Shown here: positions 3,726 to 40,083 of the stretch, in pieces
Layout of the letters: the number at the start of each line of letters is the position of its first letter
How positions within the stretch are numbered: the stretch's first letter is position 1
Assembly (NCBI GenBank): GCA_020629155.1
Contig: JAHDDW010000007.1
Span: forward strand, 81,525 to 145,524
Source of the DNA: Acidimicrobiales bacterium
Lineage (GTDB): Bacteria; Actinomycetota; Acidimicrobiia; Acidimicrobiales; SZUA-35
Reading direction: 5' to 3'
Length of the DNA stretch: 64,000 nucleotides
Program-made: the position numbers and the translations under genes
The notes under the pieces: model-generated
Seen by the model: the letters and a program-made list of their open reading frames with translations, nothing else
Told to the model about the DNA's origin: nothing
The model's database searches: none

Positions 3726-3807
3726 CTTCGCTCGAAGCGTTAGCACGCAGCTTTTAGCGGTTTATTAGTAAAGCGATTCAGCAGAGAAGCAATAATAGAG
3801 GGTGGCC
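3726..3807 (+). repeat. Dispersed structured intergenic repeat, copy A
   Basis: It lies between the convergent ends of the DMT gene and ribH2. From 5' it has a small hairpin (CTTC/GAAG around GCTC), a second hairpin GCGT-TAGC-ACGC, then TTTTAGCGGTTT, TAAAGCGATT and AATAATAGAG. The reverse complements of 13358-13439 and 38105-38183 share this order of blocks. Confidence 0.7.
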
Positions 3808-37594: not shown

Positions 37595-37787
37595 AGAACT
37601 TAGGATAGGCGTAAATCAGTGAATCGCATAGGGTGGCGTCTTTTTATTCTAGATAACCTCTGCATTTTCGCTCCAGCACGGCAGCAGCACCACGTTTTTA
37701 GCGAATTTCTGCGCATAAATCTACCCTCACAGAAAATTCTTGCATTGTTGGGAACCCTTTTGGCATCTCGCACGTCTTTATAAGCAT

Positions 37788-38039
37788 ATGAAGCACAATA
37801 GTTGGATGGCACAAGGTATATGTAGCGAGATGGACCCTACGTTCTTCTTCCCTAGCGATGGGGTCGGGGTTGAACGGGCAAAAAAGATCTGCGCAGAATG
37901 TTCACAAAGAAACGTCTGCCTAGAATACGCCCTCAGCAACCGCGTCGACCACGGCGTTTGGGGAGGCACCTCAGAACGACAGCGTAGACGAATCCTGAAA
38001 GCACGCAAAGCAGGCATTCCCGTACAAATCGCTGCCTAA
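37788..38039 (+). CDS. WhiB-family iron-sulfur regulator
   Basis: An 83-residue WhiB-like protein from ATG 37788 (WMAQG is conserved upstream of the first Cys; a start at 37806 is possible). Four cysteines for a [4Fe-4S] cluster: GICSEMDP, then KKICAECSQRNVC. The G-V-W-G-G turn and the basic end SERQRRRILKARK, which contacts DNA or sigma factor, are present. Its mRNA ends in the strong hairpin at 38063-38102. Confidence 0.93.
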   Translation: MKHNSWMAQGICSEMDPTFFFPSDGVGVERAKKICAECSQRNVCLEYALSNRVDHGVWGGTSERQRRRILKARKAGIPVQIAA

Positions 38040-38102: not shown

Positions 38103-38104
38103 TA

Positions 38105-38183
38105 GGCTATCTCTATTCGTTTTGATCGAATCGTTTTACGAGAGAGCCGTAAATGCTGCGTGCTAACGCCTCCGAGCGAGGCG
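38105..38183 (-). repeat. Dispersed structured intergenic repeat, copy C
   Basis: On the minus strand: perfect CGCCTC/GAGGCG hairpin with GCTCG loop (38167-38183), GCGT-TAGC-ACGC hairpin, TTTACG/CGTAAA, ACGATT and GAATAGAGATAGCC. Beyond it (38184-38225) a GATACCT/AGGTATC stem extends the element and ends in the same CTACAAT tail as copy B. Confidence 0.7.
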
Positions 38184-38258
38184 GATACCTGCCACTGCGG
38201 CTCGAAGCGGCGAGGTATCTACAATTTTCAGAGATACCCTTTATTACTTCCTTACCCT

Positions 38259-39674
38259 CTAGCGTAAAAATTTCTCAAAGTTTATTAGGGATGAAAAAAC
38301 ACCAGAATCTTGCACAGCATCTGGAAGTTCCCCAAAGTAGATTAGAACAGAACGCACACTCGTCCGTTTTGGCAACGTAATTTTTTCTTGTTGATCCCGT
38401 GCTTGTTCTATTACCCCTTCCGAAATACGGTTCGAAGAATACTTGATCTCACACAGATACACATTACTTGCTTCCGTTTCAATAAGGTAATCTATTTGAC
38501 AGCTGGCTTGCCGCTTATTTCGGAGCTGGAAATATGGCCCATCGTCAACCACATGTTGGGGAAGTATCCCTAGCGCCTCTCGAACAAGATGTGCGTTTTC
38601 CAAAACAAGATTTTCAAAACCATGACCTAAGGAGCTATGCCAGCCAGGCAGCTGATGCAGTTGAACATCGCGTTGCAGGCCTCGAACAATTTGTTTGCGT
38701 CTCTTATGAACATGACGAAGATAGAAACGAACGTAATTATCAGAAACTCGGTAATTGCTAAGACGCGATGTCCCAGACTTACCAATATTCCATGTGAAAT
38801 CTCTTTTAACAAAACCTGCCAGAACTAGTTCTTTGAGAAGCTTCCCGACTTCTGCAGCCGATAGTTCTAACTCTTGAACAAGCTGAGATTGAGTTCTTCT
38901 TCCTAACCGTAGCAAGTTGACCACCTGGCGATAACGCACAGCTCTCTCAGAAAAAAGATCGGAAAATATTCGTTCAAACTCATTAAATAGCAAACCATCA
39001 GCCCTAAAAAAAAGCCTACGCAAATTAGCCTCAGCAGTTAAATGTGGCTGTATCTCTTCGAGATATCGAGGGATTCCACCGACGGCGGAAAGAAACTCTA
39101 ATTTCTCTGTTTCGCTGACTCCTTTGGGCCAGAATTTCAAACAATCGGCAAGCGGTAAAGGAGCTATCTGTTTCTCAAGCGTTACTCGACCAACAAACCC
39201 TGTATTACTCAAAAGGTTCGTGTCAACCCACGAAGAAATTGAGCTACAAACAATTAAAACAAGCTTCGGGTTCCTCTTAAAAATCACATCCCATGCAGTT
39301 TTTAACTTTGGCAAGAACGTTGCGTCACCTTTGGCCATCCAAGAAATTTCATCCAAGAAAAGAAGCGCTTCCCCCTGAGATACAAGATGACCCATATTAT
39401 CAAATAGCAGGGACCAGTCAGAAGATTGAAGGCCTGAGACATTCAGATGCTTCTCCAGCTTAAGAGCAACTTCTTTCTTCTGATCTTGCTGAGATATTCC
39501 TTCACCTGGAGGCAAACCAGAAAAATGATAAAAGTTTTCAAATGTTTTACCATATTCAAAAACTAACGTACTTTTCCCAACTCGACGCCGCCCTTTCAGC
39601 ACAACAAAACTTGCAACCCGTGACGACTTCAACTCTTGAAGATCTTGCAACTCTTGAGCACGTCCAAAAAACAC
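38259..39674 (-). CDS. AAA ATPase with DUF234 nuclease-like C-terminus
   Basis: A 471-residue protein of the archaeal-type ATPase/DUF234 group. The N-terminal FFGRAQELQDLQEL precedes Walker A KGRRRVGKSTL; Walker B is ALLFLDEISWM and sensor 1 LVLIVCSSISSW. A winged-helix region (about 270-320) follows, then a C-terminal domain with a PD-(D/E)XK-like core: QIDYLIETEASNVYLCEIKY. These ATPases are often mobile or selfish and of unknown role. A 58-bp perfect palindrome lies about 50 bp upstream of its ATG. Confidence 0.88.
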   Translation of the reverse strand: MFFGRAQELQDLQELKSSRVASFVVLKGRRRVGKSTLVFEYGKTFENFYHFSGLPPGEGISQQDQKKEVALKLEKHLNVSGLQSSDWSLLFDNMGHLVSQGEALLFLDEISWMAKGDATFLPKLKTAWDVIFKRNPKLVLIVCSSISSWVDTNLLSNTGFVGRVTLEKQIAPLPLADCLKFWPKGVSETEKLEFLSAVGGIPRYLEEIQPHLTAEANLRRLFFRADGLLFNEFERIFSDLFSERAVRYRQVVNLLRLGRRTQSQLVQELELSAAEVGKLLKELVLAGFVKRDFTWNIGKSGTSRLSNYRVSDNYVRFYLRHVHKRRKQIVRGLQRDVQLHQLPGWHSSLGHGFENLVLENAHLVREALGILPQHVVDDGPYFQLRNKRQASCQIDYLIETEASNVYLCEIKYSSNRISEGVIEQARDQQEKITLPKRTSVRSVLIYFGELPDAVQDSGVFSSLINFEKFLR

Positions 39675-39726
39675 ATCAACCCCAACTTTAACAAACAGGC
39701 ATTTGTCAGTTTACTACACCAAATAA

Positions 39727-39784
39727 ACATCTTCAATAAAATAATTAACCGACATATGTCGGTTAATTATTTTATTGAAGATGT
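39727..39784. repeat. Perfect 58-bp palindrome upstream of the DUF234 ATPase
   Basis: Two 29-bp arms meet without spacer at GACATATGTC; outward the arms read ttaaccgacat and aataaaataatt. As RNA it would form a very long hairpin; as DNA it is a large symmetrical site. Its position between the ATPase start and the tatA terminator suggests an operator or a mobile-element end. Confidence 0.9.
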
Positions 39785-39796
39785 AAGAAAGCTGAC

Positions 39797-39839
39797 AAAA
39801 ACCAAAATCTCGAAACAACTATAAGTCGTTTCGAGATTT
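39797..39839 (-). terminator. Terminator of the tatA operon
   Basis: A 12-bp stem (39805-39816 with 39828-39839) followed on the minus strand by TTTTGGTTTTT, 23 bp after the tatA stop. Confidence 0.8.
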
Positions 39840-39861
39840 CTGCTACATTTACGAATGAGAT

Positions 39862-40083
39862 CTATGCTTCTTCTGCTTCTTCTGCAGATTTTACGCTTTT
39901 CTTCTTAGAAGGTTTTTCTTCGTCCTCGTCATCATCGCTATCTGCGTTTTCAAAGTTTTTCTTAAATTCCTTTTGCGCCAAACCTAAGTTTCTAGCTATT
40001 TTCGGCAGCTGCGAACCACCAAAAAGAAGCACAATAAGTAATATGATGACAATAAGTTCAGGGCCTTGAGTAAATCTTGACAT
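39862..40083 (-). CDS. tatA: Sec-independent translocase TatA/TatE
   Basis: A 73-residue TatA: short N-terminus, one membrane helix (LIVIILLIVLLFGGSQLP), the hinge FGGSQLPKIARNLG and amphipathic helix, then an acidic/basic tail. It forms the variable pore of the twin-arginine export system; tatB and tatC are not in the window. It directly follows the whiB gene at 40391 (17 bp) and is likely on its transcript. Confidence 0.94.
   Translation of the reverse strand: MSRFTQGPELIVIILLIVLLFGGSQLPKIARNLGLAQKEFKKNFENADSDDDEDEEKPSKKKSVKSAEEAEEA

Follow-up and report, generated by a model that had tools for sequence, protein, structure and literature searches.

The ATPase_2 proteins of the PDC-S27/DUF234 family are carried in PADLOC as a candidate defence gene, an assignment that is a prediction, and PDC candidates in general are mostly unvalidated (PMC12988326). 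Of the predicted defence systems that consist of one gene, PDC-S27 and PDC-S01 belong to the most frequent. Control of defence-linked genes through inverted repeats in the promoter is described for the autoregulating AbiEi antitoxin (PMC7319586) and for the WYL/BrxR defence regulators (PMC9122601). The archaeal ATPases SSO1545 and PABY2304 have an ATPase plus winged-helix fold. Orc1/Cdc6 initiators bind inverted origin repeats.

We analysed a 64,000-nucleotide stretch of an Acidimicrobiales genome (the window), in which a PDC-S27 gene lies beside a long palindrome. This palindrome is probably the main unit of a gene-specific, helically phased operator array through which the ATPase would repress itself, and which travels with the gene as one mobile cassette. 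The array, its spacing, its position relative to predicted promoters, its specificity to the gene and its co-transfer are all read from the sequence. The features of the locus are collected in Table 1.

Table 1. Features at the ATPase locus, in window coordinates.
Feature	Position	Strand	Basis
Proposed operator unit 1 (58-bp perfect palindrome, core CCGACATATGTCGG)	39727..39784, centre 39755.5	-	arm search, chance estimate
Proposed operator unit 2, degenerate (AAACTGACAAATGCCTGTTT, gene strand)	39693..39712, centre 39702.5	-	7/10 pairs
Promoter candidate TTGTCA-18-TAAAAT, -10 within the palindrome	39769..39798	-	consensus match only (expectation from shuffles, 0.5)
Alternative promoter candidate TTGAAG-17-TAAACT, between units 1 and 2	39708..39736	-	consensus match only
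ATPase-nuclease gene, 471 aa, start GTG, PDC-S27 (DUF234-type)	38259..39674	-	profiles and predicted structure
tatA terminator hairpin, separate from the operator	39804..39840	-	ordinary hairpin with T-run
tatA, left flank of the insertion	39862..40083	-	profile match, gene order in relatives
whiB, right flank of the insertion	37740..38039	+	profile match; directly after tatA in relatives

The arms of the palindrome (39727-39755 and 39756-39784, 29 nt each) are 100% complementary with a spacer of 0 nt, and the centre is GACATATGTC. The arm search thereby returned exactly the 58-bp palindrome named in an earlier reading of the sequence alone (the sequence-only reading). It is the longest inverted repeat of the window, and 2e-13 such palindromes are expected in 64 kb from base composition. 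The argument that a perfect palindrome of this length is unstable and normally lost was overstated, since bacteria tolerate perfect palindromes well below ~150 bp. The distance to the gene, formerly put at about 50 bp, is 52 bp, but the start codon is the GTG at 39674 and not the ATG assumed, which lies out of frame at 39676. The palindrome was rejected as an intrinsic terminator, since 4 of 20 pairs are GC, the tail is GATGTTTATT, and tatA has a terminator of its own; a loose terminator scan does list it as terminator-like. It was likewise rejected as a REP/BIME repeat: such repeats have many copies, whereas the palindrome occurs once in the genome, at its own locus, even with up to 3 mismatches allowed. 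Rfam gave no match at the site. The centre of unit 2 lies exactly 53.0 bp from that of unit 1 and is the third-best palindromic centre within a 300-bp stretch. The window gene therefore fits the spacing rule of the family, which was found independently in the homologs, as described later.

The window protein matches Pfam ATPase_2 and belongs to PDC-S27, judging from its match to the PADLOC profile PDLC04984 (E 1.9e-70, residues 2-418). The DUF234 label given earlier applies in part: the window protein falls below the Pfam DUF234 model at E 0.001, while its paralogs L010 and L020 reach it. In the AlphaFold2 model (mean pLDDT 94.8), residues 1-321 resemble the archaeal ATPases PABY2304 (2qen; Z 21.3, rmsd 2.9, 297 aligned) and SSO1545 (2fna; Z 20.2, 294 residues), followed by NB-ARC cores of plant NLRs (Z 15-17); Orc1/Cdc6 proteins on origin DNA (2qby, 2v1u) are also among the matches. 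STAND NTPases are marked by an hhGRExE start, Walker A, an hhhhDE Walker B and a GxP motif. The corresponding segments of the window protein are FFGRAQEL, GRRRVGKS, LLFLDE and GGIP, and the predicted model has the NB-ARC-like fold and winged helix of this class. Among 94 sequences, R5, G28-K34, D108, E109 and P202 are invariant or nearly so, with the Walker residues K34, D108 and E109 kept in 93 or 94 homologs. The C-terminal 142 residues, modelled alone (pLDDT 90.8), match PD-(D/E)XK nucleases (2vld, Z 9.7; EndoMS, Z 9.6; AF1548, Z 9.3; McrC, Z 8.5), and the D...ExK residues are kept as D395 (94/94), E409 (93/94) and K411 (93/94). The structure prediction thus bears out the PD-(D/E)XK-like domain proposed before. 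Judging from these fold matches and conserved residues, the window protein is a winged-helix ATPase of the STAND type that also carries a nuclease predicted to be active.

Homologs were collected from viral contigs and from genome contigs of Chlamydiae, Legionellales, Rickettsiales and others, covering several phyla; the genome contigs were searched with a profile from a closer alignment than that of all 13 paralogs. No relative turned up when viral sequences were searched with a DUF4143 protein. In the region from -150 to +10 at 107 loci, the best inverted repeat has a median score of 11, against 6.95 in dinucleotide shuffles, with p<=0.01 at 60 loci. A score of at least 10 is reached by 72% of the 107 homologs and by 7% of 222 control upstreams at the same loci (Mann-Whitney p 1.6e-34, which is not a tally of independent events, as the loci share ancestry). 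Downstream of the homologs, the fraction is 15%. The palindromes that the sequence-only reading expected upstream of close homologues are thus present at most homologs. Among more distant homologs of the same order, 8 of 24 have a strong inverted repeat. A core, CGACAAATGTCG, recurs in many homologs and resembles CCGACATATGTCGG of the window, while the outer arms vary. Long inverted repeats likewise precede a HicA toxin gene (L084:6375-6755) and an AbiEi antitoxin gene (L107:1162-1974), both located near homologs.

The window genome itself contains 13 full-length paralogs and one C-terminal remnant, and no full-length copy occurs in any of 36 genomes from the same family. With identities of 17-53%, the paralogs form the better sample; the lowest attainable p is reached by 9 of the 13. 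The upstream region of each has an inverted repeat of its own, differing in sequence and often built of alternating half-sites. Four TGCCAATA-like half-sites in alternating orientations precede L010, four ATCCATAA-like ones precede L018, and three each precede L011 and L007. The remnant (L019:1417-1770 on contig C15, 117 aa) lies directly upstream of a DUF4143 gene with a 38-bp palindrome in front.

The spacing of the units should be noted. Repeated units have a period of 53-57 bp (mode 54). A period of 52-57 bp is found in 46 of 106 homologs and in none of 196 controls, with up to about four units per array (L097, L107, L119, L143 and L149). Relative to the best centre, the palindromic score averaged over loci has maxima at +-27 bp and again at -54 bp, so that the half-sites alternate evenly. 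This lattice of 27 and 54 bp corresponds to about 2.5 and 5 helical turns, which by the geometry of DNA is a placement of the units on the same face.

The sites are private to each gene. A site is common to 1 of 80 same-genome pairs, and the proteins of that pair are 90% identical. On the other hand, nine pairs from different phyla have at least 17 of 18 bases in common, a level never reached in 300 shuffled pairs (at most 16). Site likeness grows with protein identity. In the genome of L115, three copies of the site occur at exact 54-bp steps at its own locus only. In that of L113, all three copies lie around the ATPase gene, one of them downstream by ~480 bp; this palindrome (L113:4899-4941), before dnaB, may be what is left of a further copy of the gene or an operator that was captured. 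Since the site is tied to the gene rather than to the host, the protein likely recognises its own site. The sequence-only reading had proposed that the protein recognises or resolves the palindrome; the recognition part is likely, as the site tracks the gene, while the promoter position favours an operator over a resolution site. No support was found for a resolution or origin-like role. A comparison of site likeness with alignment columns gave a diffuse, phylogenetic signal only and did not locate specificity residues.

The position of the units relative to promoters and transcription start sites (TSSs), both predicted, bears on the rival explanations. In 80% of the units the centre is upstream of the TSS. 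The segment from -35 to the TSS is overlapped by 70% of the units, as expected of an operator, and 4% would be wholly transcribed. Since the units overlap the promoter and mostly are not transcribed whole, they point to a DNA site and not an RNA hairpin. TATAAT-like boxes show no clear phasing with the unit centres. A role at the RNA level, with 5' leader hairpins acting as an attenuator or a terminator/antiterminator, could draw on the folding of the palindrome as RNA and on the terminator-like match scored there. However, it is quite improbable given this position; up to four units at a fixed 54-bp spacing suit binding to one face of DNA, and the window palindrome has no T-run comparable to that of the separate tatA terminator. 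We infer the binding of the ATPase to its own site, which gives some room to a host regulator as the bound protein. With such a regulator, a single site would be expected in each host, yet the sites differ among same-genome paralogs, match across phyla and travel with the gene, so that this explanation has just as slim a chance. Chance, a REP-like repeat family or an assembly artefact might be suspected in a draft assembly of 59 contigs, but is hardly credible in view of the expected number and single genomic copy given above, the second unit at the family spacing, and the same design in many independent assemblies.

A competing view takes the array for a mobile-element end (transposon or homing type) that the ATPase-nuclease would bind in order to move its own gene, with repression being secondary. 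It draws on the borders. In relatives, tatA and whiB are adjacent, and the ATPase is between them in 0 of 11; in a genome of the same genus (G001), the two genes are convergent and nearly touch. The empty site sought in related genomes is thus found. Between homologs of at least 80% DNA identity in different contexts, homology starts a median of 1.5 bp from the array's outer edge and runs to the stop codon, with a median offset of 0 bp and 64% of cases no more than 10 bp away; 13 of 20 pairs at least 85% identical have no detectable flank homology. The element of L123 and L139 (97.5% identical) stops just short of the stop codon, and each flank provides a different one; between L092 and L095 the stop codons are unlike at their final base, which comes from the flank. 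Because homology is limited by the outer palindrome and the stop codon, the moving unit is the array plus the coding sequence, and unit 1 is likely also the 5' border in the window, by analogy with homologous borders at other loci. With flanks unshared, the earlier proposal of palindrome and ATPase as a self-contained unit holds. The pairing of an ATPase with PD-(D/E)XK also recalls TnsC and TnsA, if only by analogy. Nevertheless, the mobile-end view seems unlikely: no matching palindrome occurs 3' of the gene, no transposase or integrase is present within the unit (gene list of the window, profiles), and no target duplication was seen, the nearest relative being too diverged to judge. With neither a transposase nor a matching 3' palindrome, the unit was rejected as an insertion sequence or transposon, in which inverted repeats would stand at either end. 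Moreover, the sites lie over the promoter, and a selected sequence of operator plus gene would end at the same borders if host recombination supplied the flanks. A somewhat bolder and less probable idea is a new kind of minimal mobile gene, in which the phased array would serve as operator and as working end at once. If true, one STAND ATPase-nuclease would recognise its private array, be silenced by it and use it to copy or move itself between genomes; the segment transferred would be exactly the array and the gene as far as its stop codon, and neither a transposase nor terminal inverted repeats would be needed.

An interspersed ~130-bp intergenic repeat, AGGCTATCTCT...CCGAGCGGAGCGGA...GGGCATCTATAATAAATAGAGATGCCC, ending in a stem-loop, is also observed in the window (38104-38250, beside the ATPase gene, and ~3728-3779). 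It has 22 matches in the genome at ~75-87% identity and no Rfam match, and may represent a MITE or else a small RNA present in repeated copies. As a candidate element end it was rejected; it looks independent, and none of the matches that were placed lies next to another ATPase copy.

Returning to the self-repressing operator array, we infer its binding partner, repression, trigger and defence role as follows, the last of these being a database prediction. The ATPase would bind its private array as a phased multimer, perhaps through the winged helix as in Orc1/Cdc6; the fold matches to these DNA-binding relatives are counted in favour of self-binding. In STAND proteins, though, this domain often has a structural role and does not bind DNA. 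The bound ATPase would repress its own promoter and keep the STAND-gated nuclease low. An event such as phage infection would alter the ATP or oligomeric state of the ATPase, and the altered state would release the promoter and arm the nuclease. A private operator may further let a dozen paralogs coexist without cross-regulation or cross-talk, and let each gene work in a new host. If so, each gene across phyla comes with a defined DNA ligand, with which binding, repression, inducer and nuclease release are testable together. The array further offers a rule by which true start sites and element borders can be found, and shows operator plus coding sequence to be the unit of gene transfer.

In the open literature, which the search covered, no description of such arrays was found, and an earlier one is possible. 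The AAA_14-DUF4143 ATPases (PDC-S01), of which the window genome has ~20, also have private inverted or direct repeats upstream, in 7 of 17 tested. For instance, private palindromes or 31-33-bp direct repeats precede L175, L177, L181, L189 and L191 in the window genome. However, their ATPase and nuclease belong to other families than those of PDC-S27, and the layout with 31-33-bp direct repeats differs. SSO1545 and PABY2304 have the ATPase and winged-helix fold in common with the window protein, which adds a PD-(D/E)XK domain outside the matched range of residues 1-321. Orc1/Cdc6 initiators likewise have AAA+ and winged-helix domains in common with it, but they load helicases, whereas the window family has its sites at its own promoter and a nuclease attached. 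AbiEi and WYL/BrxR are a dedicated antitoxin and dedicated regulators, while here a single polypeptide is proposed to be sensor, repressor and nuclease. The PDC-S27/DUF234 ATPases have the same domain layout and a similarly patchy spread (PMC12988326); the reports searched describe the protein only and mention no operator array, whereas the window gene carries a proposed one.
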